The translations under genes and the position numbers were made by a program. Of a DNA stretch of 64,000 nt, positions 6,866 to 64,000 are shown piece after piece (position 1 is the stretch's first letter; each line of letters begins with the position of its first letter). The stretch is from Jonesia quinghaiensis DSM 15701 (GTDB taxonomy: Bacteria > Actinomycetota > Actinomycetes > Actinomycetales > Cellulomonadaceae): NCBI RefSeq assembly GCF_000423205.1, contig NZ_AUHN01000010.1, positions 186,001-250,000 of the forward strand, given 5' to 3'. Below the pieces are notes generated by a model that worked only from the letters and a program-made list of their open reading frames with translations, ran no database searches and was not told the DNA's origin.

Positions 6866-7807
6866 CTACAGCCGAATGAGCATGGCATTCGCTGTGAGCC
6901 CCGCAGCCGTCCCGCACAACAGCACAAGATCTCCCGTGGTGGTGTTTCCATCTTTGAGGGACTGCGCGAGAGCAAACGGAACTGATGCAGACACCATGTT
7001 CCCGTAGTCCTGGACGTAGTCTGCGTACTTTCCGTCCGCGATACCTAGCTTCCGCATCGCCAGCGGCAATGCCCGGCTCGCTTGGTGGGGCACCACATAG
7101 TCGATGTCTGCTGGGGTGATGCCTGCTCGCGCATAGAAGCGTTCAAAGAAACCCGGCAACACCCGCAACATGCTCATCAAGACGCTGCGCCCATTCATAT
7201 CAAATTGGTAGTCAGCGGTTTCATGGCGGTCGAAGTGATGAGCGGGCATCCTGGTTGTCCCGCCGCGAATTTCGGTGTCGTGAGCAAACTGGGGCCATGT
7301 CTGTTGCATTGAGGCGACAATCCCCCGCTCTGGGTTGTCACTACGGGTAACAACCATGGCCACTGCGGCGTCAGAGAATAATTCATAACTCTCATGCTGA
7401 TTCGGATTCAGGAACTGCGAGCCGACATCACCAGAGACCACAAGGATGGTGGAGTACTCACCGTCACGGATATACCGTGATGCAATGTCTAGCGCAGTGA
7501 TGAAGCTGGTGCACGTGGAGTTCACGTCGAATGCTGCCGCGTGTCCCGTGGTGGTGAGTTGTTCAAGAATCAGTGCAGCGTTGCATGGGATAGGTTGGAT
7601 GTCTGCTGCGCTTGCCCCGATCACGCAGTCGAGGTCTTGGGCAGTAATATTTGCATCCTCCAGAGCTCGCTGTGCGGCAGTCACAAGCATGGAGAGTTGT
7701 GCGTGTGATTCTGTGACTCGGTATCGCACTGAGCCGTCAAAGACGACGGAGTTCTCGGGGAGGTAGGTTCCGATGCCACGAATAGCGAGCGGACGGGTAA
7801 CGCTCAT
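6866..7807 (-). CDS. 3-oxoacyl-ACP synthase III (FabH/OleA-like ketosynthase)
   Basis: 313 residues. The thiolase-fold catalytic triad is visible: Cys99 in NSTCTSF, His241 in VVPHQASRALP and Asn270 in DYGNMVSASVPFAL. The enzyme condenses an acyl thioester with a second acyl or malonyl unit. It is the last gene of a four-gene operon and overlaps the adenylate-forming enzyme by four bases. This context, with no ACP, malonyl transferase or elongation genes, argues against housekeeping FabH and for a dedicated acyl condensation, as in OleA. Substrate unknown. Confidence 0.85.
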   Translation of the reverse strand: MSVTRPLAIRGIGTYLPENSVVFDGSVRYRVTESHAQLSMLVTAAQRALEDANITAQDLDCVIGASAADIQPIPCNAALILEQLTTTGHAAAFDVNSTCTSFITALDIASRYIRDGEYSTILVVSGDVGSQFLNPNQHESYELFSDAAVAMVVTRSDNPERGIVASMQQTWPQFAHDTEIRGGTTRMPAHHFDRHETADYQFDMNGRSVLMSMLRVLPGFFERFYARAGITPADIDYVVPHQASRALPLAMRKLGIADGKYADYVQDYGNMVSASVPFALAQSLKDGNTTTGDLVLLCGTAAGLTANAMLIRL

Positions 7808-32910: not shown

Positions 32911-32959
32911 ATGGGTGTTGCCCTCTCTACGGAGAGAGGGCAACACCCATTGTGTTGTT
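32911..32959 (+). terminator. Terminator of arabinanase gene 1
   Basis: An 18-base-pair perfect stem (ATGGGTGTTGCCCTCTCT / AGAGAGGGCAACACCCAT) with a four-base loop, followed by TGTGTTGTT. Confidence 0.92.
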
Positions 32960-33009
32960 ATCCACAGGGAACCTAGTCCCATGTTCCGTCAGCACCTAGC
33001 TGCGATGTG

Positions 33010-33693
33010 ATGGGACGCATGTCAACAACTCGTGGTGAACACAATTCTCAGCTAGCGTCACTCAACGCGGCAAAGCAAGGGCGGGCGCGCCTAGTGGGTG
33101 CGGCTTTGACTGCTCTCATTGTGTTCTGTGGCTTAGGAGCATGTTCAAAGGAAGAAACGAACGCCCCTCCCGCACCGCAAACAAGCAACACTGCGCCCAC
33201 AAACTCTACTGCCGACGAAACCACCGAACCAGCGCCTCAAGATGAGGTTGTCGACGAGCCTGTTGCCAGCCCTGCGCCGGAAGAACCAGAAGCTATGAAA
33301 ACCGGGGATAAAGCCGGTGCCCTCGCCGCAACTGAGTTTTTCATCAAAGTCATCGAACACGACATGGTGAATAACAGCACCGACCTCCTCGATGAGTACG
33401 CCTTTGAGGGATGCGGCCGATGTGAATATCTACGCGGCGTAGCAAAAAACCAAGAGGAAATGATGATAGACGTTTCGGAGTATACGTTTACTGAACTAGA
33501 AATATCAGCTCCAGAATTTACAGGGGACACCACCCTTCTCTGGGATGTTCCCGTCAAGGCTACGGTCAAATCTTCCACCAGTGACAGCCCGGACACGCCG
33601 CCTGTCAAACAAAACACACCAGTTGATCTCGTCTTCCTTGTTGGTTTCTCAGAAAGCAGTTGGAAACTTGTCGAAATTGAGGACCCCAAGTGA
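33010..33693 (+). CDS. DUF6318-type lipoprotein (pair with PKD protein)
   Basis: 227 residues from ATG 33010 (33007 GTG and 33019 ATG also possible). Signal peptide with lipobox LGAC, a Pro/Glu/Thr-rich linker ending PEEPEAMKTGDKAGALAATEFFIKVIEHD, then the DUF6318 domain with a CGRC pair (GCGRCEYLRG). Expected to sit on the outer face of the membrane. Its last bases overlap a PKD-type secreted protein (GTGA), the same arrangement as the 49 kb, 58 kb and 62 kb pairs. Function unknown. It starts about 60 bases after the arabinanase terminator, beside a TTATCCACAGG sequence. Confidence 0.8.
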   Translation: MGRMSTTRGEHNSQLASLNAAKQGRARLVGAALTALIVFCGLGACSKEETNAPPAPQTSNTAPTNSTADETTEPAPQDEVVDEPVASPAPEEPEAMKTGDKAGALAATEFFIKVIEHDMVNNSTDLLDEYAFEGCGRCEYLRGVAKNQEEMMIDVSEYTFTELEISAPEFTGDTTLLWDVPVKATVKSSTSDSPDTPPVKQNTPVDLVFLVGFSESSWKLVEIEDPK

Positions 33694-34571
33694 TTGGCGC
33701 CTCTTTCATTCGCATTTCATTGTCTGTGACATTTTTTGCCATTCCTAGTCTGATATTTTTCGAGACAGATTTTCTACCCGAGTGGGATCTAGAGAAAGTT
33801 AACATCCCGGCGAAAAATGAAGGCAGAAATAGATGGGAAGATGCCAACTCCGCTGAGCCTAAAACCAGTGATGCTGATCCTCAACCTCAAGCTTCTTCGG
33901 AACCTCGAGACCCACTCGCTGGCGCGGCACAAGGGGCATGCGGCCCAGATGGTGGACAGCAGGTACTCGCGGAAGTTCAGAATGGTGGACAGCAAGGGTT
34001 TGCAGAGCTTGGCGCTGGTGAGGTCAGTCCAGAACGTACGTCGCTGATCATGTATTGCTTTCCTCCGGGAGAACCTGGCGCGCAAGGTACGGAAGGCAGC
34101 GAACCCCTTCGCATTAGCTTTACCATGTCGGACTTCCAAAGCCTCCCTTTGAAGGGTTCTGGCATCAACATTGAGCCAGATCGTGATGACTACGTCATTA
34201 ACCTCCCTGTCATCACGCTAACGAACCCCGAACCGCAAATTTTGACCACAACCATATTGGGCATTCCGATCCGAGTGCGTGCCACTCCCATCGAATACGC
34301 CTGGGACTGGGGCGATGGAAGTTCGCCTCTCGTCACGACCGACCCAGGCCGCTCATACCCCGACCATACGGTTCACCACACATATACAATGCTCGACACC
34401 TTCACCATTAGCCTCACAACCCGGTGGGAAGGGGACTACAGTATCGACGGCGGTGCCACTTGGCTTCCGATCAGTGGAACAACGACGACAACAGAAAACA
34501 GTTCACCTGTGACCGTGCTCGAATACACGCCACTGCTCACGGACCCAAACAATGGGACAACTGGTGACTAG
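33690..34571 (+). CDS. Secreted PKD-domain-like protein paired with DUF6318
   Basis: 293 residues, GTG start overlapping the previous stop. Signal peptide/anchor at the N terminus (FIRISLSVTFFAIPSLIF), a low-complexity region, a segment with two Cys (GACGPDG ... IMYCFPP) likely to form a disulfide, then GSGINIEPDRDDYVINLPVITL and a PKD-like beta-sandwich with the signature WDWGDGSSPLVTTDPGRSYPDHTVHHTY and FTISLTTRWEGDYSIDGGATWLPISG. Cell-surface location is inferred. It is the only pair in this part of the window. Confidence 0.75.
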   Translation: MIGASFIRISLSVTFFAIPSLIFFETDFLPEWDLEKVNIPAKNEGRNRWEDANSAEPKTSDADPQPQASSEPRDPLAGAAQGACGPDGGQQVLAEVQNGGQQGFAELGAGEVSPERTSLIMYCFPPGEPGAQGTEGSEPLRISFTMSDFQSLPLKGSGINIEPDRDDYVINLPVITLTNPEPQILTTTILGIPIRVRATPIEYAWDWGDGSSPLVTTDPGRSYPDHTVHHTYTMLDTFTISLTTRWEGDYSIDGGATWLPISGTTTTTENSSPVTVLEYTPLLTDPNNGTTGD

Positions 34572-48436: not shown

Positions 48437-48715
48437 TCATAGTGGTATCGCTTCCTTACGGATGTGGTCCATCAGTGGACCGGTACCGCAATCAGACACG
48501 ACGTCCACTGGGGCATCAACGATTTGCTGCACGTCAGCCATGAAAGCTGCGAGGTCGAAGATCGAGGCGGTTGGCGCCGGGTGAACAAGGATGTCGATGT
48601 CTGAACCGTTGCCTGCTTGACCTCGAGCTACGGAACCAAACAGCCTGACGTTGCTGAGCTGGTGGGTCTTCGCGGACTCCATCACATGCAGGCGGTGTTG
48701 CCTGATTTTCTCCAT
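48437..48715 (-). CDS. MNT-type minimal nucleotidyltransferase
   Basis: 92 residues from the ATG at 48715; the frame is open to 48865 but the extra N terminus is low-complexity. The signature VRLFGSVARGQAGNGSDIDILV is the GS-x10-DxD active site of minimal nucleotidyltransferases, and a third Asp lies in DAPVDVVSD. In MNT/HEPN toxin-antitoxin systems such proteins AMPylate the HEPN toxin. No HEPN gene is seen on either side, so it is orphan or its partner is lost. Confidence 0.8.
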   Translation of the reverse strand: MEKIRQHRLHVMESAKTHQLSNVRLFGSVARGQAGNGSDIDILVHPAPTASIFDLAAFMADVQQIVDAPVDVVSDCGTGPLMDHIRKEAIPL

Positions 48716-48827
48716 ACTGGGGGCATCTAGCGCTGATACTGGGTTTTCTGTTGGCGATGGCGTGGGAACTATATGGTCTTTCCCGCTTGCTCTGTTGTGC
48801 TGACGGGTGTTGATAGATGATGGGGTC

Positions 48828-49034
48828 ATGGAGACGCGGTCAGTACCTATTGATGTGAGTGACACGGCAGTGCCTGGTTGGCAGGATCCACGCGAGGTTA
48901 CCCGGTTTGGCGTGTTGATGGCTAACGGTCGCCTCGCTCCAAGGAACTTTACAACGCGTGAAGAAGCTGAGGAGTGTGCTCAACCTGGTGAACGCGTTGT
49001 TGAATGGAACCTTGTTTGCGAGTGCGACCGTTAG
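48828..49034 (+). CDS. Small hypothetical protein
   Basis: 68 residues: METRSVPIDVSDTAVPGWQD at the start and REEAEECAQPGERVVEWNLVCECDR at the end, with codon use like the host. It looks like a real small cytosolic protein in the size range of antitoxin-like or regulatory peptides, but no family is recognised. Its start codon overlaps, on the opposite strand, one of the possible starts of the nucleotidyltransferase. Confidence 0.5.
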   Translation: METRSVPIDVSDTAVPGWQDPREVTRFGVLMANGRLAPRNFTTREEAEECAQPGERVVEWNLVCECDR

Positions 49035-49077: not shown

Positions 49078-50001
49078 TTAGTTGTCCGGTACGAGGAGTG
49101 GGACTTTCTCGACGATGGGTAGCTGGGCGCTTGTCCCTGTGGTTTCGAGGAACCCCGGAACACGAACCCACGAAGTTCCATCCAACGACCAGGACGCAGA
49201 CCACTGAGTCGTCACAGAAATCCTCACCGGATCAAGAGTGGTGTACGTATGCTGATACCCAGTTTCCACATCAGCACTACCCGGCGACGCAACAGGACCC
49301 AAAACAGTGCCATCACCCCAATCAAACGTGAACGACACTGGAGCAACACGCACCGAAACAGTTTGCCCCAGCAACGTTGGCGTAAACATCTGCACAGCAG
49401 AATCCGTATACACCACCACAGGCAGATTAATCACCCGCGGATTATCCGCACCAATCTTTGGATACGTGTGAACAGGCGAAGGCTTGATCTTCAACACCGC
49501 CAAATCTTCCAACGTAATGTTCAATGGAGTGTCACCTTCTAGGGCTTGACTTGGACATCTACCCAAACGAAATCTTGTCTCAGTCACCTGACCTGATGAG
49601 ACATCGATTTTGTCCTCAAAAAATAAACCCCATTCAAGTTCGGTGGCAATATCACATTTCGGCTCTTCGAACTTATCGATAGCCTCACTTAAACAATCCA
49701 TCATCGATCCGATAACAGAATTAACAGTAAATCCTGCACATAATTTGTCTCGCTGTTTCCAGAGGTGAGTTAGCACGACAACCCCAGCAGCTTTGCCTTG
49801 TTGAGTTTCCGTTTCAAGTCCCTTCACAGCCACTTCATCGCCTTCGTCAGCCGCAGTTCCAACGAAGCTAGTCCCGGCTCCCTCACGATCCCTGTAGAGG
49901 TCGACTAGATGTGATTCAAAATTTTTGGGAGTCGGTACAAAATTGACAGAACTGCCAAATACTAGACTCGACGCTACACCAACGCTTAGTAATTTTTTCA
50001 C
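49078..50001 (-). CDS. Secreted PKD-like protein paired with DUF6318
   Basis: 307 residues. Signal peptide (LLSVGVASSLVFGSSVNFV), a long N-terminal part rich in Asp/Glu with four Cys (LCAGF, DCLSE, KCDIA, RCPSQ), then KIGADNPRVINLPVVVYTDSAVQMFTPTLLGQTVSVRVAPVSFTFDWGDGTVLGPVASPGSADVETGYQHTY, the PKD-like signature, and FSWSLDGTSW-type strand. The most divergent member in the window. Overlaps the upstream DUF6318 gene (ATGA). Confidence 0.75.
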   Translation of the reverse strand: MKKLLSVGVASSLVFGSSVNFVPTPKNFESHLVDLYRDREGAGTSFVGTAADEGDEVAVKGLETETQQGKAAGVVVLTHLWKQRDKLCAGFTVNSVIGSMMDCLSEAIDKFEEPKCDIATELEWGLFFEDKIDVSSGQVTETRFRLGRCPSQALEGDTPLNITLEDLAVLKIKPSPVHTYPKIGADNPRVINLPVVVYTDSAVQMFTPTLLGQTVSVRVAPVSFTFDWGDGTVLGPVASPGSADVETGYQHTYTTLDPVRISVTTQWSASWSLDGTSWVRVPGFLETTGTSAQLPIVEKVPLLVPDN

Positions 50002-50696
50002 TCAAAAGCCACCTCTCCAAAAGCCCGTAAAAACCATCCACCTTCTTTATCACTTATGACCATTTGCCTAGCGAAGGATCCGCTCTTTTCAAAGAAACCC
50101 AAGACCTCTCGCTTTTCATTCACAACAGGCGTTTCATAATAGTGAACCGTAAGATCTAATATCCAACCGTCGTAGCCTTTGCTATAAATTGCAATATCTT
50201 CAGTCTTATATACTGGACCGACAGGGGGAGTTTCCTCTTCATAAAAATCATTAATTATTTTGAGGGTACTTGCACACATTCCACAAGTTGGATCACTCAA
50301 TTTTTCGAAATCACTGATATCACCCGTTGCATAGGAATAGTTCAAGACGTCAATCATGTACTGGGCAGCAGCCTCAGCACCAGCTTCGTCGTTATTAGCC
50401 ATCTCTGGGTATTCCACAGGTTTAACAATCTCAACCTCAGGGACAACATCCCCCACCTCATACTCCGAGGGATCGAACTCATCAAAGGGAATCGGCGCAT
50501 CCTCACCCGCCGCTGCTTCACTACCAGCAGCGTCACCATCAGCATCGGCTGGGACTTCAACAGTCTTACTCACCTCAACCGGTTCCTCACCACCGTCACT
50601 ACACCCACCCAACACAACAGCACTAACCACAAGCGCAACAAGTGAACGGCGGAAAGGGAAAGACTCAAGACCACGTGAAAAAGACATAGATCCCAT
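49998..50696 (-). CDS. DUF6318 lipoprotein (pair with PKD protein)
   Basis: 232 residues (ATG 50696 or 50687). Lipobox LGGC, acidic linker, then the DUF6318 domain NNDEAGAEAAAQYMIDVLNYSYATGDISDFEKLSDPTCGMCASTLKII, with the CxxC-type CGMC pair. It matches the standard DUF6318 consensus better than the copies at 58-63 kb. ATGA overlap with the PKD gene. Upstream lies a CCACAGGGGAGG stretch like the leader blocks of the 58-63 kb copies. Confidence 0.85.
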   Translation of the reverse strand: MGSMSFSRGLESFPFRRSLVALVVSAVVLGGCSDGGEEPVEVSKTVEVPADADGDAAGSEAAAGEDAPIPFDEFDPSEYEVGDVVPEVEIVKPVEYPEMANNDEAGAEAAAQYMIDVLNYSYATGDISDFEKLSDPTCGMCASTLKIINDFYEEETPPVGPVYKTEDIAIYSKGYDGWILDLTVHYYETPVVNEKREVLGFFEKSGSFARQMVISDKEGGWFLRAFGEVAFE

Positions 50697-50985
50697 GATC
50701 TAGCAGCCCAACCCACCACACGATAGGCACCCCTCCCCTGTGGAAAAAGCGTCACGCCTCGTGGGTAAAAAGCCCGACAAAGCTCGACTCATGGCATCTG
50801 TATTCATCCAATCAGGCGAGAAGACCTTAACCAGTTGAGCAGCGCAAATATCGGGATTTTGAAAATGCTCACAACCATATGGTTGCCACATTGCGCGCTA
50901 CCCATCGGGTCAGCATTTTTGGCTCACTAGGCTTCGTGGCGAAGCGCACAGTTGCGCCTAGTCGGCTGTACCTCCGGTCAGTGTT

Positions 50986-56440: not shown

Positions 56441-56633
56441 GGGGTGGTGCCTCCAGTGTCATACATATGTGCTGGGACCGATGACAGTCATCGGGTGGGG
56501 GTGACATAACCGCGGGGTGCCGGTATCACGGCACCTGAACCTAGCACATTGCCCCCTGCGTGCAGCAGGTTCACTTCTCCCCACGTGCGTTGTCCCACAT
56601 AGGCGGGTGGGCATCGGCCGTAGGATGTTGGTT

Positions 56634-57899
56634 ATGGATACTGCCGAGTACATGTCAGGTTTTGCCCAATTCATTACAGCGTCACCGTCGTCTTATCACG
56701 CCGCTCACGAGGTGGCCCGGCAGCTGAGTGACGCCGGTTTCACGCAACTCCACGAGCATGAGCCGTGGGTCGCCCCGAAGCGTGCGTTTGTGATCCGTGA
56801 TGGTGCGATCATTGCGTGGATCACCCCGGATAACGTGTCCACCACAGCGCCGGTGCGGGTGTTGGGGTCTCACACGGACTCCCCCGGTTTTAAACTCAAA
56901 CCCCAATCCACGACGGGCAGCGCGGGTTGGTTGCAGGTGGGTGTGGAGGTCTATGGTGGGCCGTTGTTGAATTCGTGGTTGGACCGCGAGTTGGAGCTTG
57001 CTGGGCGTCTTGTATTGAAGGACGGCAGTGAACACCTGGTGCGCACGGGGCCGTTTATGCGGGTGCCCCAGTTGGCTATTCACTTGGACCGTGAGGCGAA
57101 CAACGGGTTGAAGTTGGATAAGCAACGGCACACTGCCCCCGTATATGGGGTGGGGGCTGTGGGTGATGCTGATGTTCTTGGGTATTTGGCGGAGCTTGCG
57201 GGTGTTGAGCCTGGTGAGGTCGCCGGGTATGACGTGATTTCGGTGGACACTCAGGAGCCTCGCCGTTTTGGGCGCGGTGATGAACTGTTCGCTGCTGGGC
57301 GGATGGATAATTTGTCGTCAGTGTATGCGGGGCTTGTTGCGTTATTGAACGCCCCTGATGACGCGAAACATATTAGCGTGTTGGCGGCTTTTGATCATGA
57401 GGAGATTGGTTCGGAAACCCGTTCGGGTGCGAGTGGGCCGTTCCTTGCCGATGTTATTGACCGTATTTATGAGGGGCTTGGTTCCACCCGTGAGGAGCGG
57501 CACCGCGCTATCGCACAGTCGTGGTGTCTTTCTTCGGATGCTGGGCATTCTGTTCACCCGAATTATGCGGAGCGTCATGACCCTGCGGTGCAGCCGTTGG
57601 CTGGGTCGGGCCCGCTGTTGAAGATTAACGCTAACCAGCGGTATGCCACTGATGGGCAGGGTGCTGCAATGTGGGTGCGCGCGTGTGAGGCGGCGGGTAT
57701 TGAGTACCAGGATTTTGTGTCGAACAATAATTCGCCGTGTGGTTCAACGATTGGGCCATTGACTGCCACCCGTTTGGGTATTCGCACTGTCGATGTTGGG
57801 ATCCCGTTGTTGTCGATGCACTCGGCCCGCGAGTTATGCCACGTTGCTGACGCTCACGCACTGACCCGTGCGATTAGCGCGTTTTACGCTGGCGCGTAA
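56634..57899 (+). CDS. M18 family aminopeptidase (aspartyl aminopeptidase type)
   Basis: 421 residues. FITASPSSYHAAHEVARQL, VLGSHTDSPGFKLKPQS (metal His and Asp), LLNSWLDRELELAGRL, GRMDNLSSVYAGL, FDHEEIGSETRSGASGPFL (Glu-Glu pair), LSSDAGHSVHPNY and PLLSMHSARELCHVAD (metal His) cover the full dinuclear zinc site of M18. Cytosolic peptidase for acidic N-terminal residues. ATG 56634 is chosen; TAGGAT at 56621-56626 lies seven bases upstream, so the mRNA is probably leaderless. The longer frame from 56517 is not supported. Confidence 0.92.
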   Translation: MDTAEYMSGFAQFITASPSSYHAAHEVARQLSDAGFTQLHEHEPWVAPKRAFVIRDGAIIAWITPDNVSTTAPVRVLGSHTDSPGFKLKPQSTTGSAGWLQVGVEVYGGPLLNSWLDRELELAGRLVLKDGSEHLVRTGPFMRVPQLAIHLDREANNGLKLDKQRHTAPVYGVGAVGDADVLGYLAELAGVEPGEVAGYDVISVDTQEPRRFGRGDELFAAGRMDNLSSVYAGLVALLNAPDDAKHISVLAAFDHEEIGSETRSGASGPFLADVIDRIYEGLGSTREERHRAIAQSWCLSSDAGHSVHPNYAERHDPAVQPLAGSGPLLKINANQRYATDGQGAAMWVRACEAAGIEYQDFVSNNNSPCGSTIGPLTATRLGIRTVDVGIPLLSMHSARELCHVADAHALTRAISAFYAGA

Positions 57900-57913
57900 G
57901 CCCACTGCTTAGC

Positions 57914-57955
57914 CGCCGATGCCCACCCTGGTTGGGTGGGCATCGGCGTTTGTGT
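57914..57955. terminator. Terminator of the M18 gene, shared with the DUF6318/PKD array
   Basis: CGCCGATGCCCACCC pairs with GGGTGGGCATCGGCG around a five-base loop, followed by TTTGTGTTGT. A closely related hairpin (GATGCCCACCCTG core) ends copy E at 63366. Confidence 0.85.
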
Positions 57956-58028
57956 TGTGCGTGTTGTTGGGCGCGGTGAGGTTGTTGGGCGGGTCACCGT
58001 TGTGGCGCGTTTTGTGTGGTGCTGGGGT

Positions 58029-58877
58029 TTAGGTATTGTCGCCGTTGACGAGGAGGGGAACGCGTTCTTCGACACGGATGGGAGCAGCGGTGTCTGTTGT
58101 TGTGGTTGTCCCGTTGATGGGAAGCCAGGTCGCACCACCATCGATAGAGAATTCGCCTTCCCACGTGGTGGTAAGGCTAATAGTGAAGTCACCGAGCTCG
58201 GTGTAGAGGTGTCCAACAGTTTGGTCAGGGTATGAACGCCCCGGATCTGTGGTGACCAATGGTTGACTCCCATCCCCAAAATCCCACGAATATTCGACGG
58301 GCGTTGCCCGCACTGCAACGTTGATTCCAACAATCGTTGTGGTCAGCACTTGCGCAGACGGATCCGTTAACCCAATAACAGGCAACCGAATAATGTAATC
58401 ATCCCGATCAGGCTCTATCACAATCCCCGAACCAGCTAGTGGCAGGCGACGAAACTCCTCAACCGACACCGAAATCACAATCGGCTCACCGCTTACTTCT
58501 TCCACGTCTGGGAAACAGTAGAAAATGTAAGCGCCTACCCCCTCAGATGCACCAGCAATATTATTCCCGCCCTGCTCAGCAACATGATCAACCCACACAA
58601 GAACATCCTGCCCATCCGAACCCTCAGGACACCGACCCCGAACAGCACCTGACGGTATTTTATTCTGTTGCTTTTCAGACTTTTTGGATGGTTCCGCATT
58701 GTAGTTTTCTACATTTGCGGTTTCGTTTTCCGTCGATCTTTCGTAAGCGTCCTTACCTCCCAAATTAAACCCATCTGAGGATGGAGTGACTTCAATTCCA
58801 CCAAGCGGATTCTGCGTCGTCGTCGGGCTGAAAGAGTAGAGTGCAGCCAAAATGAAGATTGTTAGACTACTCGACAA
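58029..58877 (-). CDS. PKD-like secreted protein, copy A
   Basis: 282 residues. N-terminal signal peptide (LTIFILAALYSFSP), disordered middle, a Cys-containing segment (RGRCPEGSDGQ ... YIFYCFPDVEE), then SVEEFRRLPLAGSGIVIEPDRDDYIIRLPV and the PKD signature YSWDFGDGSQPLVTTDPGRSYPDQTVGHLY with DFTISLTTTWEGEFSIDGGATWLPING. Overlaps the DUF6318 gene by 11 bases. Nearly identical DNA over the 3' half to copy E at the window edge, indicating very recent duplication or gene conversion. Confidence 0.8.
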   Translation of the reverse strand: MSSSLTIFILAALYSFSPTTTQNPLGGIEVTPSSDGFNLGGKDAYERSTENETANVENYNAEPSKKSEKQQNKIPSGAVRGRCPEGSDGQDVLVWVDHVAEQGGNNIAGASEGVGAYIFYCFPDVEEVSGEPIVISVSVEEFRRLPLAGSGIVIEPDRDDYIIRLPVIGLTDPSAQVLTTTIVGINVAVRATPVEYSWDFGDGSQPLVTTDPGRSYPDQTVGHLYTELGDFTISLTTTWEGEFSIDGGATWLPINGTTTTTDTAAPIRVEERVPLLVNGDNT

Positions 58878-59508
58878 GAAAATCTCCTTCGACTAACAAC
58901 CATCCATCATCGTTGAAACCTACATACATATCACCGGTTAGTTTTTGATCTGTCTTGATCAATTCACCATCTGTGGTGGATGTGTACTCGGAGGATATAT
59001 TTGCCCTGATTGGGATAGACCACATAACTGAATTTTCACCAACGAAAGACGCATCGACTATTTCTTCAGCATCAAAGACGTACCTGGTGAGACTGAAATC
59101 ACTTTCCGACCTTTTTTGGTGATTCTTTTTATACTCATTGCACCAGGTGCACTCTCCAAATGCATACTTTGAGAAAAAACTTGAGTCTTTTTGCACAGCA
59201 TCATATTCAATGACTTCGACGAAGAACTCTGCTGCTGCGATAGCACCGGCCTTGTCTCCTATTTTCATCGCATCTGGCTCTTCAGGAACGGGGCGTTCCT
59301 CAGGCTCAACCGTCTCCGGGGCACTCGTCTCGGTCGTTTCAGTGTCAGCGGGTTCCTGCTCAGCCTGTGTTGTCGGCGCAGGCACTGAAGGCTCCTCCCC
59401 ACCACTACACCCAGCAAGCAACAAACCACCAACAACCACAGCAGCAACAAGCCGCACAGAACCTACACCGAAGCCATTACGCCACATAGAAGAGAACATA
59501 CCCAACAT
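58867..59508 (-). CDS. DUF6318-type lipoprotein, copy A
   Basis: 213 residues from the ATG at 59508. Signal peptide with lipobox LAGC, Glu/Pro/Thr linker (ETVEPEERPVPEEPDAMK), conserved GDKAGAIAAAEFFVEVIEYD and a Cys pair CTWC. The C terminus has the short hydrophobic strand MYVGFNDDGWLLVEGDF. Upstream frame to 59640 is the leader block, not protein. First gene of pair A. Confidence 0.8.
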   Translation of the reverse strand: MLGMFSSMWRNGFGVGSVRLVAAVVVGGLLLAGCSGGEEPSVPAPTTQAEQEPADTETTETSAPETVEPEERPVPEEPDAMKIGDKAGAIAAAEFFVEVIEYDAVQKDSSFFSKYAFGECTWCNEYKKNHQKRSESDFSLTRYVFDAEEIVDASFVGENSVMWSIPIRANISSEYTSTTDGELIKTDQKLTGDMYVGFNDDGWLLVEGDFLVE

Positions 59509-59592
59509 CTTCTCTGACCAACCCAACCAACAACCATCGGCACACCTCCCCTGTGAACAACCCCACCACCCACACACCACCGTGATACCGCA
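59509..59592 (-). promoter_or_regulatory. Conserved leader block with mini-ORF, copy A
   Basis: On the minus strand GTTGTTCACAGGGGAGG is followed seven bases later by ATG. That ATG (59537) opens a 24-codon mini-ORF starting MVVGWVG that runs across the true lipoprotein start in another frame. The same block precedes copies B, C and D. Confidence 0.55.
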
Positions 59593-60074
59593 GCAGCACA
59601 GATTCGAAGCAACTTCCTTACACCTCGGCCATCCACTCATGATCGAATATGTCTACGATGGGGTCACCATTGACCTCAGGTGCGAAGCTACTTGCTATGA
59701 ACAGCATGAAGAAGCGGTGATAGTCCTATCAAGCGACAGAGAGCTAGGTGATGCGCCATCCCAACCCACTACCAGCAAGTGACTTGAATTCAGACAAGCA
59801 GTACGTAACATAGCCCCCAAGCATTCTCAAACCGTATCTTCAGTAGGCAAAATCAAGAATTCGGATTTAAGTTCGGTTCAGTAGTAGGTTCCGCATCAAG
59901 GCTCTTACCTTTATTTCAACCACGATGCCCGTTTAGCGCATTACCCTAGACGCCCACCCGTGCTGGAGCATCAACGCGCCGATCACCGGACCACCTGTAT
60001 CCGAGCCCTATTCACGAAAGCTTGAATCGGATAGTCAAGTATTACCAGCAAAAATAGTGTTACACTTCCACAGA
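59593..60074. other. Gap in the array between copies A and B
   Basis: About 480 bases where a PKD partner for copy B would be expected. No PKD motif is left. A plus-strand frame of about 47 codons from the ATG at 59639 (MIEYVYDGVTIDL) lacks a Shine-Dalgarno and is not called. Confidence 0.45.
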
Positions 60075-60704
60075 TCACGAGCCCGTTTCTATTTCGACTA
60101 ATATCCATCGCGAATCAATAAACTGAACAACAAAGTCAAGAGAGGGATTTTGAATCACGACATCTGTGGAATTTTCGAGGTTCTCTTCTATGGAAAGCTC
60201 AACCGGAACAAGCCACATTAGAACACCTTCACCAACGAAATCAGGTTCGTTGAGTTCTTCTATTGTGTAAAAAGAACCTAAAGACTTTTGATGGGTCGAA
60301 ACTCTTTCTTCAACAAGATCGATGAGGTGATTACATCTGCCACAATTTTCGTATGAGTACTCTTCAAGAAGGTCGGTATTGCTTGTGTGCATAGAGTATT
60401 CAATAACCCCGACGAAGAATTTTGCTGCCGCGATAGCACCAGCCTTGTCACCCGTTTTCATCGCTTCAGGCTCTTCAGGCACCTGGCGTTCTTCAGGCTC
60501 AACTACTTCAAGGGCATCAGTTTCCGCTGGTTCAGTAGGGGCAGGCTCCTCCTCAACCTGGGTCGTTGGCGCAGGCACTGAAGACCCCTCGGCACCTACG
60601 CACCCAACAAGCAACAAAATACTTGCCAACGCGGTGGCAACAACTCGACCAACAGTTACAGGAGCACCATTAAGAGCCAAAGAAAAGAACATACCAACCA
60701 TCAT
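60075..60704 (-). CDS. DUF6318-type lipoprotein, copy B (no PKD partner)
   Basis: 209 residues from ATG 60704 (60701 also possible). Lipobox LVGC, linker ETDALEVVEPEERQVPEEPEA, conserved MKTGDKAGAIAAAKFFVGVIEYS and Cys pair NCGRCNHL. The start overlaps the stop of the leader mini-ORF (TGATG). Stands alone: no PKD gene follows. Confidence 0.8.
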   Translation of the reverse strand: MMVGMFFSLALNGAPVTVGRVVATALASILLLVGCVGAEGSSVPAPTTQVEEEPAPTEPAETDALEVVEPEERQVPEEPEAMKTGDKAGAIAAAKFFVGVIEYSMHTSNTDLLEEYSYENCGRCNHLIDLVEERVSTHQKSLGSFYTIEELNEPDFVGEGVLMWLVPVELSIEENLENSTDVVIQNPSLDFVVQFIDSRWILVEIETGS

Positions 60705-60785
60705 CACCGCCCCACCCAACCAACAACCATCGGCACACCTCCCCTGTGAACAACCCCACCACCCACACACCACCGTGATACCGCA
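60705..60785 (-). promoter_or_regulatory. Conserved leader block with mini-ORF, copy B
   Basis: Same block as copy A. The mini-ORF MVVGWVGR starts at 60730 and its TGA overlaps the lipoprotein ATG by one base, ideal for translational coupling. Confidence 0.6.
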
Positions 60786-60894
60786 CCGTGACCCCCAACA
60801 TAACCAAGGTCGAGGCAATTCATGTCAGGAATGGGCGGAGGTCGCTCACTCACATCCGCACAAGCAACCGTAGATCATAGATAATAGATCTCGA

Positions 60895-61542
60895 TCACTT
60901 TCCTCGCCCTTCAAGATCAGGCTCAACCTCAGTAAGCTCCCACACATCTGCCTCGAAACTTACAAAAACATTTAGCGTAACTTCAGTAACTCGCGACTCT
61001 TCCTCCCCAGTCAGCATTTCCTCGATTTTTAAGTCAATTGGAACTCGCCAAATTATCACACCTTTGCCAACGAACTCTGGTTCGCCTACGGACACGATCT
61101 TATAATCCGTTATTATTGAACTGAAATTCGTCCCAATCCTCTGGTCAATTAGATCGAGCATGTGATTGCAATTAGTGCACCTTTCATATGAGTATTCTGA
61201 AAGAAAGGCTCTTGAGTTTGTCCCAAGGCTATATTCGATGACTTCGACGAAGAATTCCGCTGCTGCGATAGCGCCAGCTTTGTCACCCGTTTTCATCGCT
61301 TCAGGCTCCTCAGGAACTGGGCGCTCCTCTGGCAATGATGTTTCGAGAGGTAGCGATTCTGTTATGTCCGAGGAAGCGAGTTCCTTCTCAACCTGGGTTG
61401 TTGGCGTAGGTAGTGGAAGCCCCTCCGCCTCTCCACACCCAGCAAGCAACAACATACTGGCCAACATGGTGGCAACAACACGCCCCGCGCCAGTATTTAC
61501 CAGGGAACGATCACTACGCGTAGAAGAGAACATGCCCACCAT
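60895..61542 (-). CDS. DUF6318-type lipoprotein, copy C (no PKD partner)
   Basis: 215 residues. Lipobox LAGC, linker ETSLPEERPVPEEPEAMK, GDKAGAIAAAEFFVEVIEYS and Cys pair RCTNCNHM. Like copy B it lacks a PKD gene. Start 61542 is two bases after the leader mini-ORF stop. Confidence 0.8.
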   Translation of the reverse strand: MVGMFSSTRSDRSLVNTGAGRVVATMLASMLLLAGCGEAEGLPLPTPTTQVEKELASSDITESLPLETSLPEERPVPEEPEAMKTGDKAGAIAAAEFFVEVIEYSLGTNSRAFLSEYSYERCTNCNHMLDLIDQRIGTNFSSIITDYKIVSVGEPEFVGKGVIIWRVPIDLKIEEMLTGEEESRVTEVTLNVFVSFEADVWELTEVEPDLEGRGK

Positions 61543-61626
61543 CTTCACCGCCACACCCAACTAACAACCATCGGTACACCTCCCCTGTGAACAACCCCAA
61601 CACCCACACACCACCGTGATACCGCA
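61543..61626 (-). promoter_or_regulatory. Conserved leader block with mini-ORF, copy C
   Basis: GGGGAGG, seven bases, then the mini-ORF MVVSWVWR (start 61571) ending two bases before the lipoprotein ATG. Confidence 0.55.
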
Positions 61627-61706
61627 CCGCGACCGCGACGCTATTGAGAACTCGGAAGTAACACGCTTTGCCTAGCGCCTTATAGAGGGCGTCGTGTTGT
61701 TGGGGT

Positions 61707-62609
61707 TTAGGTGTTGTCGCCGTTGACGAGGAGGGGTACGTGTTCTTCGACGCGGATAGGCGCAGCGGTGTCAGTGGTTGTGGTTGTGGTTGTTCCGTTG
61801 ATGGGCAGCCAGGTCGCTCCCCCGTCAATGGAGAATTCACCTTCCCACGTGGTGGTGAGGCTAATCGTGAAGTCACCAAGCTCGGTGTAGGGGTGCTCAA
61901 TGGTTTGGTCTGGGTATGAACGCCCCGGATCTGTGGTGACCAATGGTTGAGTGCCATCCCCAAAATCCCACGCATACTCAATGGGGGTTGCCCGAATAGC
62001 GACACCAATACCAAGGATCGTGGTGGTCAGGATCTGCGGCGAAGGATCAGTCTTCCCAATGACCGGCAAATGAATAACATAATCATCCCGATCAGGCTCA
62101 ATCACAATCCCCGAACCCACAAGAGGTAAACGCCGAAACTCCTCAACCGACACCGAAATCACAATCGGCTCACCACCACCAAGCTCACCGCCCTCAGGCA
62201 TACAGTAATACACGTAAGACCCAGGCCCACTCCCCCCTTCTCCAGCAGGCAAATTATTACCGAGCCTTCGAGCGGAAGTATTCTCCACATACAACGAATA
62301 ATTCTGTCCCTCAACATCTGCAGGGCACGTTCCTAGCAAAGCACCCGCAGGCAAACCATAAGGATTCGGATTCACACGCTGTTCAGCATCAGGCTTCGGA
62401 TCGGTTGTATTTTGAGAACCGTTGTCTCCAGAGGATGTTTTCGCTCCATTTCCATTCGGTGTTTTATTTACCTTGTCCACCCCATCAATGTCAACCGATC
62501 CAGGCTCATTCCATTTAGGAACAATTACGCTTCCCCGGTCGCTGGGCTCAGAAAATATAGGAAATCCGAGTGCTAAGTGTGCTGTAACGTAAAGGAATGC
62601 GCCCATCAT
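61707..62609 (-). CDS. PKD-like secreted protein, copy D
   Basis: 300 residues. Signal peptide (FLYVTAHLALGFPIF), Asn/Asp-rich middle, Cys pair region (LLGTCPADVEGQ ... YVYYCMPEGGE), SVEEFRRLPLVGSGIVIEPDRDDYVIHLPV, and PKD signature YAWDFGDGTQPLVTTDPGRSYPDQTIEHPY. The C terminus TTTTTTDTAAPIRVEEHVPLLVNGDNT differs from copy A by a few residues. ATGA overlap with its DUF6318 partner. Confidence 0.8.
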   Translation of the reverse strand: MMGAFLYVTAHLALGFPIFSEPSDRGSVIVPKWNEPGSVDIDGVDKVNKTPNGNGAKTSSGDNGSQNTTDPKPDAEQRVNPNPYGLPAGALLGTCPADVEGQNYSLYVENTSARRLGNNLPAGEGGSGPGSYVYYCMPEGGELGGGEPIVISVSVEEFRRLPLVGSGIVIEPDRDDYVIHLPVIGKTDPSPQILTTTILGIGVAIRATPIEYAWDFGDGTQPLVTTDPGRSYPDQTIEHPYTELGDFTISLTTTWEGEFSIDGGATWLPINGTTTTTTTDTAAPIRVEEHVPLLVNGDNT

Positions 62610-63241
62610 AGGTGGACATTCTCCAACTCAACGAGAGTCCATTTGCCTTCATCGAACATTACCGCTACACCAAGGTTGACTTCTTCCTTGTATTCTTCTA
62701 GTTCCTCTCCGAACTTTTCGTGTATAGAAATATTCACGGGAACCAGCCACATGATAACTCCTTGGCCTACGAACTCAGGCTCACCAGTTTCGGTGACGGA
62801 ATAGCTGGAACTAACAGACTTTTTACCTTGGTCCACACGCTCCTCGATCAAACTGACTAAGTAGTTGCACCTACCGCATTCTTCAAATGAATATTTTTCT
62901 AGAAGCTCGGTTGTGTTGGTGTGCATGTCATATTCAATAACTTCGACGAAGAACTTTGCTGCGGCGATAGCACCAGCTTTGTCCCCCGTTTTCATCGCTT
63001 CAGGCTCTTCAGGAACAGGGCGCTCCTCGGGCTCTACCGTTTCGGGAACTGCCGTTTCCGTCGTTTCAGTAGGGGTAGGCTCCTGCTCAACCTGGGTTGA
63101 CGGTGCAGGCGCTGGAGGCTCCTCCGCACCTCCACACCCAGCAAGCAACAAACCGCCGACCAAGACGGTGGCAACAACTCGACCAACACCAGCAGTAACT
63201 ACGGAACCATCACGACGCGAAGAAAAGAACATGCCCACCAT
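62606..63241 (-). CDS. DUF6318-type lipoprotein, copy D
   Basis: 211 residues from ATG 63241. Lipobox LAGC, linker ETVEPEERPVPEEPEAMK, GDKAGAIAAAKFFVEVIEYD, Cys pair ECGRCNYL. The upstream frame extends to 63682 through the C-terminal region of copy E in another frame and is not protein. Paired with PKD copy D. Confidence 0.8.
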   Translation of the reverse strand: MVGMFFSSRRDGSVVTAGVGRVVATVLVGGLLLAGCGGAEEPPAPAPSTQVEQEPTPTETTETAVPETVEPEERPVPEEPEAMKTGDKAGAIAAAKFFVEVIEYDMHTNTTELLEKYSFEECGRCNYLVSLIEERVDQGKKSVSSSYSVTETGEPEFVGQGVIMWLVPVNISIHEKFGEELEEYKEEVNLGVAVMFDEGKWTLVELENVHL

Positions 63242-63320
63242 ATTCTCCGACCCACTCAACGAGCCACCATCGGCACACCTCCCCTGTGAACAACCCCACC
63301 CCCCACACGCAGCCGTGATA
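63242..63320 (-). promoter_or_regulatory. Conserved leader block with short mini-ORF, copy D
   Basis: Same CACAGGGGAGG block; here the mini-ORF is only MVAR (start 63270), ending about 14 bases before the lipoprotein ATG. Confidence 0.5.
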
Positions 63321-63365
63321 AGACCATCGTCCCCAATGCACCACCGTGATATCACCACAAACACA

Positions 63366-63399
63366 ACGATGCCCACCCTGTTACCAGGGAGGGCATCGT
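63366..63399 (-). terminator. Hairpin terminator of copy E
   Basis: ACGATGCCCACCCTG pairs with CAGGGAGGGCATCGT around a four-base loop, about 10 bases after the copy E stop codon. Confidence 0.75.
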
Positions 63400-63410
63400 G
63401 GTGCTGGGGT

Positions 63411-64000
63411 TTAGGTATTGTCGCCGTTGACGAGGAGGGGAACGCGTTCTTCGACACGGATGGGAGCAGCGGTGTCTGTTGTTGTGGTTGTCCCGTTGAT
63501 GGGAAGCCAGGTCGCACCACCGTCGATGGAGAATTCGCCTTCCCACGTGGTGGTGAGGCTAATGGTGAAGTCACCGAGCTCGGTGTAGAGGTGTTCGACG
63601 GTTTGGTCAGGGTATGAACGCCCTCACACATAAAACGAATATTCGACGGGCGTTGCCCGCACTGCAACGTTGATTCCAACAATCGTTGTGGTCAGCACTT
63701 GCGCGGACGGGTCTGTTAACCCAATGACGGGTAACCGAATGATGTAATCATCCCGATCAGGCTCTATCACAATCCCCGAACCAGCTAGTGGCAGGCGACG
63801 AAACTCCTCAACCGACACCGAAATCACAATCGGCTCACCGCTTACTTCTTCCACGTCTGGGAAACAGTAGAAAATGTAAGCGCCTACCCCCTCAGATGCA
63901 CCAGCAATATTATTCCCGCCCTGCTCAGCAACATGATCAACCCACACAAGAACATCCTGCCCATCCGAACCCTCAGGACACCTACCCCGAACAGCACCAG
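63411..64000 (-). pseudogene. PKD-like protein, copy E, internally deleted and truncated (continues past window)
   Basis: From the window edge the frame matches copy A (WVDHVAEQGGNNIAGASEG...DRDDYIIRLPVIGL...VRATPVEYS) and then reads FYV and TGA at 63624. The frame reopens as GRSYPDQTVEHLYTELGDFTISL to the normal stop at 63411. Compared with copy A, 15 codons (the WDFGDG PKD signature) are replaced by four, one a stop, so the net 33-base loss keeps frame. The deleted part is exactly the PKD core. Either a dead gene or a truncated secreted product. Confidence 0.8.

Follow-up and report, generated by a model that had tools for sequence, protein, structure and literature searches.

Why does Jonesia quinghaiensis DSM 15701 carry an array of genes for a DUF6318 lipoprotein (D), most of them paired with a gene for a secreted PKD protein (P), and what could such a pair do? 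The array lies in a 64-kb stretch of contig NZ_AUHN01000010.1 (positions 186,001 to 250,000 of the forward strand; assembly GCF_000423205.1), here called the window, whose numbering is used below unless a locus label is given. The best explanation, to which we assign a probability of about 0.6, is that D and P form a surface pair that would be coregulated with competence and the Tad pilus and diversified by exchange of a cassette. Sequence comparison gives good support to a two-gene surface unit that is widespread, exchanges its central cassette by recombination and has a promoter type in common with tad genes, and moderate support to this promoter type being a competence promoter.

A two-gene unit with an exchanged core

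The window holds six D, four intact P and one broken P, and the whole 3-Mb genome eight D and six P. All genes, including two solo D and the broken P, were found where the original prediction, made from the sequence of the window, had placed them. In each of the four intact pairs the stop codon of one gene overlaps the start codon of the next, by 4 nt in three pairs and 11 nt in one; this had been claimed for most pairs.

Among 99 genomes of the same order, D was present in 74, usually in one to three copies. A P gene lies immediately downstream of 106 of the 136 D, and 106 of the 116 P have a D in front of them, which makes D-P an established two-gene unit, expanded in Jonesia. The two Jonesia genomes have eight and ten D, compared with about 1.2 per genome elsewhere; eight D in one 3-Mb genome, with mostly one to three in relatives, is far beyond chance. 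Rather than being single-copy and unlinked, the two families are linked nearly everywhere, in line with the original prediction, while the large expansion is mostly a trait of the genus. Outside Jonesia, six genera likewise have two or more D within 10 kb. Fragments of D or P at the very end of a contig are frequent (G041, G046, G020, G036, G052, G018, G058, G026; G numbers are our genome labels), so D-P repeats probably interrupt short-read assemblies and are undercounted in them.

Between copies, the ends of the unit are conserved, namely the promoter with the D N-terminus and the P C-terminus, and a core of ~550-800 bp covering the D C-terminal domain and the P N-terminus is replaced. Two units of the congener (G001) are 94-97%, then 53-67% and then again 95-99% identical in 100-nt steps, and the relatives G034 and G061, the latter from another family, give the same conserved-variable-conserved profile. 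Synonymous differences (pS) follow the same division. Within D, pS is 0.16-0.24 in the N-terminal part and 0.57-0.75 in the C-terminal part (G034, G061 and a third relative, G024); within P, it is 0.05-0.12 in the C-terminal part and 0.55-0.82 in residues 1-75 (G001, G034, G061). The contrast between the N- and C-terminal parts is weaker in the relatives G030 and G009, and in the genome of the window (G000) most flanks are older, with a pS of 0.36-0.53 in the D N-terminal part. In two D pairs of G001 the automatic split fell too early, at the lipobox, and those rows understate the contrast; properly split, G001 copies 937 and 936 show a synonymous divergence (dS) of 0.17 in the N-terminal and 2.7 in the C-terminal part. 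Constraint on the protein cannot equalise synonymous sites; hence the ends were homogenised, or the cores replaced, by recombination. Judged from these sites, the contrast between ends and core reflects recombination and not constraint, and it recurs in two families.

The two halves of D also differ in their relationships. The N-terminal parts cluster by species (78% within versus 49% between, with the nearest neighbour from the same species in 11 of 11), whereas the C-terminal parts do not (31% within, 31% between), and two C-types, at 74% and 55% identity, are common to both species. In approximately unbiased (AU) tests, grouping by species was rejected for the C-terminal part and grouping by shared type for the N-terminal part (p <1e-22). 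The locus combines tandem paralogues, conserved blocks around variable regions and conflicting trees, as a recombining array does. For one trans-species pair, the P N-terminus was clearly inherited together with the D type (z 6.9). Cassette structure, synonymous sites and copy counts support the earlier proposal of ongoing duplication and conversion. The trans-species C-types have a low nonsynonymous difference (pN of 0.16 and 0.28) at saturated pS (0.86 and 0.97), which indicates that they are kept by purifying selection; the ratio dN/dS for a pair of solo D genes is ~0.35.

A promoter type common to D, tad and comEA

On the coding strand ahead of D we found a TTRTCCACAG box, matching at least 8 of 9 positions in 42 of 58 distinct upstream regions, compared with 4 on the opposite strand and 0.56 in shuffles. 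Within the 15-45 nt examined after the box, TANNNT occurs at 27-30 or 37-41 nt only, two spacings that differ by about one helical turn. From its sequence, the combination has the appearance of an activator site followed by a -10 element. Two other readings of the box were rejected: it does not fit a -35 element, as it ends 27-41 nt from the -10, and a leader peptide or hairpin after it, considered from the G000 and G001 sequences, fits the two-phase TANNNT spacing in other genera less well than a promoter does.

The box ahead of the tad operon is present in 16 of 18 genomes, including G000 and G001, with one on the reverse strand and 0.43 expected; the TadA genes were located by a conserved-core pattern. 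The TANNNT spacings at these sites, 27-29 and 36-40 nt, are about those seen in D. The tad operon of G000 encodes a TadA-type ATPase, two T2SSF proteins and a TadE/G-like protein, and lies beside a peptide release factor gene. Upstream of comEA, sites match 9/9 positions in G001 and 8/9 in G000, G034 and G061, giving four of six genomes at 8/9 or better, and G009 has a 7/9 site with the right spacing. A comparison of ComEC coordinates with strict motif matches gave no link; sites emerged once the region where the comEA-comEC operon begins was inspected. In the relative G071, D-P lies next to tad in divergent orientation, and in G001 a few genes separate the tad cluster from a D-P array.

A search for box and TANNNT together found 42 sites in 12 genomes and none for the reversed pattern; the spacing used, 27-41 nt, was derived from D genes, so that D matches are expected there. 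The tad test is nearly independent of this search, with one of its 18 genomes (G003) common to both. Genes downstream of the composite sites, regulon membership being sampled among genomes, include D, TadA/CpaF ATPases, DUF222, a DEAD-box helicase and others; several of the DUF222 labels are backed by profile positions and others by appearance only. DUF222 genes in G034:C1 and G061:C1 often have a box within a few hundred bases upstream, and this multi-copy family may have a regulator in common. Two further loci of the window's genome were noted: a WXG100-like gene (weak PF06013 match; L087:1501-1933, G000:C1 ~545,006-545,440) has a composite promoter (TTATCCACAG, 38 nt, TANNNT), and L080, a locus for a small helical-looking protein, has the box without a -10. 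In the literature searched, no paper was found that ties the box to competence or to Tad pili for this group.

Loci of the window and predicted structures

All six D of the window score 28.9-53.5 bits against PF19843, above the Pfam gathering cut-off of 23.8 bits, and carry an N-terminal lipoprotein signal. Pair 1 lies on the forward strand, with a TTATCCACAG box at 32958..32967, D at 33007..33693 (28.9 bits; 4-nt overlap with the next gene) and P at 33690..34571, the latter a profile match that falls just below the PF00801 cut-off (22.6 versus 23.5 bits). All other copies are on the reverse strand. In pair 2, a TTTTCCACAG box (50738..50747) precedes D (49998..50696; 53.5 bits) and a divergent P (49078..50001), which has no Pfam PKD match and is homologous to the other P by profile, being itself one seed of one profile search. 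Pair 3 consists of a TTGTTCACAG box (59551..59560), D (open reading frame 58867..59640, true start probably ~59,510) and P (58029..58877; PF00801, 29.6 bits), with the variable core, formed by the D C-terminal domain and the P N-terminus, at approximately 58657..59200. The first solo D (open reading frame 60075..60818, true start probably ~60,700) and the second (60895..61560) have TTGTTCACAG boxes at 60744..60753 and 61585..61594, respectively, and both match PF19843. In pair 4, the TTGTTCACAG box is at 63284..63293, D at 62606..~63346 (the open reading frame extends further upstream; true start probably ~63,240) and P at 61707..62609 (PF00801, 28.7 bits), with the core at approximately 62354..62920.

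The motifs proposed as kept hold in the majority of copies, though not in every one. CxxC is present in all D, and C87, C90 and W166 are invariant across 57 relatives, but the string quoted earlier for D is replaced by PVEYPEMANNDEAGA in the 50.0 kb D and by PEEPDAMKIGDKAGA in the 58.9 kb D, and IEPDRDDY of the partners is absent from the 49.1 kb P.

The broken P of pair 5 (63398..64000, reverse strand, early stop at 63624) has lost ~45 bp of the PKD core at 63590-63650, where ~10 bp of filler bring in the stop. Its remainder is 97-98% identical in DNA to the 58 kb P, as the earlier claim of near-identical copies has it; that claim does not extend to the D C-terminal halves in the array, which are 19-47% identical. 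The 5' end of the broken P and its D lie beyond the window (L015:6625-7973, with D at L015:7206-7973, contig C6), so the array, followed into neighbouring DNA, extends past the window edge; its far end adjoins conserved housekeeping genes that are, named from sequence, histidine-phosphatase-, RsfS- and NadD-like. In G001, two P copies (L066:4905-5354, 7336-7707) have lost the PKD core through internal deletions, and in one of them the N-terminus is disrupted as well, with the D upstream of each intact; P decay in this genome includes a frameshift. As far as these copies tell, P decays repeatedly while D copies stay under purifying selection.

An aminopeptidase gene (56517-57899; L069:8643-12614) borders the array in both Jonesia species, in opposite orientation. 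A small nucleotidyltransferase-like gene (GSVARGQAGNGSDIDILV), of a kind known from toxin-antitoxin pairs, is found at 48437-48865.

Structures were predicted for single chains. The model of D from pair 4 is NTF2-like, with a predicted local distance difference test score (pLDDT) of 88.9 and many NTF2-like matches at Z 9-12; against 5d9r, Z is 12.4 with a root-mean-square deviation of 2.5 over 122 aligned residues at 8-9% identity. Searching solved structures with the D sequence gave no match. The P of 61.7 kb has a confident C-terminal PKD-like domain, matching PKD structures at Z ~10, and ~130 N-terminal residues modelled at low confidence. The models suggest that D is a membrane-anchored NTF2-like lipoprotein and that the secreted P combines a conserved PKD domain with an N-terminus that is variable and probably disordered. 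Binding of the variable P segment by the D domain is a plausible model, and the two proteins would bind each other through their co-varying parts.

Weighing the explanations

According to the preferred explanation, the translationally coupled D and P genes would encode a cell-surface pair, expressed together with the Tad/Flp pilus and the natural competence proteins ComEA-ComEC from a common promoter type. Tandem and dispersed copies would recombine through their conserved ends and exchange the central cassette as a block; P would be lost repeatedly and D copies retained under purifying selection. The D-P promoter would be competence-induced, and the pair may act in or alongside DNA uptake, as an accessory factor or in competence-linked competition with D protecting. 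A more specific version, in which a competence-induced, cassette-diversified effector/protector or self-recognition pair governs which neighbours, or DNA of which origin, the cell engages during Tad-pilus transformation in Actinomycetota, and the cell's own uptake machinery supplies the DNA for core exchange, is speculative and in our view rather unlikely.

Several observations count against the preferred explanation. TTRTCCACA is also the actinobacterial DnaA box, which leaves DnaA or some other factor as the possible regulator, and the box set includes DUF222-type and other genes with no tie to competence. In the Jonesia D copies the -10 element is not clear. The comEA sites are weaker than those of tad, and none was seen in G017, one of the six genomes. 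CpaF-type ATPases occur in all 99 genomes, which makes the co-occurrence of D and tad uninformative, and for the second trans-species pair the P N-terminus is only weakly co-inherited with the D type (z 3.7).

Antagonism or kin discrimination linked to competence is an alternative that we consider possible but not probable. P would be a secreted effector on a PKD domain, D the lipoprotein immunity protein and the solo D orphan immunity, comparable to EsaG/TipC. Purifying selection on solo D, the repeated decay of P and the variable core would all agree with this, as would the same composite promoter ahead of the WXG100-like gene of the window's genome. Competence control would resemble the predatory competence programmes of other bacteria. 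Against it, domain profile scans found no toxin-like domain in P, whose N-terminus resembles a disordered linker; single-copy pairs are common, and no dedicated secretion link was found. The tipC lipoprotein arrays, which likewise have conserved ends (PMC9484751), speak in its favour.

The original prediction had suggested adhesion, competition or immune evasion. Such a role was not borne out. Variation is confined to one specific cassette in the centre of the unit, and the promoters point to a Tad-pilus/competence programme. A diversifying surface complex that serves as adhesin, or as receptor or decoy, for example against pilus-targeting phages, with outside partners selecting core change, would agree with the predicted surface location of both proteins, the high core diversity and the co-regulation with the pilus. 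We regard it as improbable in view of the strong purifying selection on trans-species C-domains. There was also no PADLOC defence-model match at E 0.01, though absence from one library excludes nothing, and plasmid and phage records held no P homologue, which leaves a mobile-element origin without support as well. A PKD-based scan of genome contigs returned only generic PKD proteins from distant organisms. Ordinary gene-family turnover, in which conversion homogenises the ends without function and the box is only a general DnaA box, is similarly doubtful: tandem repeats convert readily and the box matches the DnaA box consensus, but the fixed strand, the two-phase TANNNT spacing, the recurrence before tad in 16/18 genomes and the retention of old core types across species argue against it.

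By its promoter signature, the same as that of the genes for DNA-uptake pili, D-P may be a component of natural transformation that has so far gone unrecognised in this group. In Micrococcus luteus, the actinobacterial transformation model, Tad/Flp pili are required for transformation and comEA-comEC is also present (PMC4322843); what its competence regulon comprises is described as unknown (PMC12849477). The signature common to tad, comEA and D-P may define a candidate competence regulon, and it names an unstudied, widespread protein pair as a candidate member. D-P is also a clean case, in at least two families, of a two-gene-spanning cassette exchanged between conserved ends. Pairing, cassette exchange and promoter sharing of D-P were not found in the literature searched.

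Among known systems, DUF6318 (PF19843) includes the D of the window as members above the cut-off, with lipoprotein signal and CxxC; it has no described function, and no paper naming it was found in the literature searched. The closest structures with the NTF2-like fold predicted for D are the intermembrane-space domain of ARC6/PARC6 and VirB8/TraM (Z 10-12), but at 8-9% identity, and a common fold shows no function. The tad and comEA-comEC gene types of the M. luteus Tad/Flp system carry, or adjoin, the D-P promoter signature in related genomes; the M. luteus papers searched mention neither PKD proteins nor lipoproteins. The esaG/tipC immunity arrays of type VII secretion systems resemble D-P in their tandem paralogues, conserved blocks around variable regions, recombination, pseudogenes and orphan copies, and TipC has a lipoprotein signal, like D (PMC9484751). 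Unlike these arrays, D-P belongs to another phylum and is without a recognised toxin, its core runs from the 3' half of one gene into the 5' part of the gene that follows, and its promoter is common with pilus and com genes.

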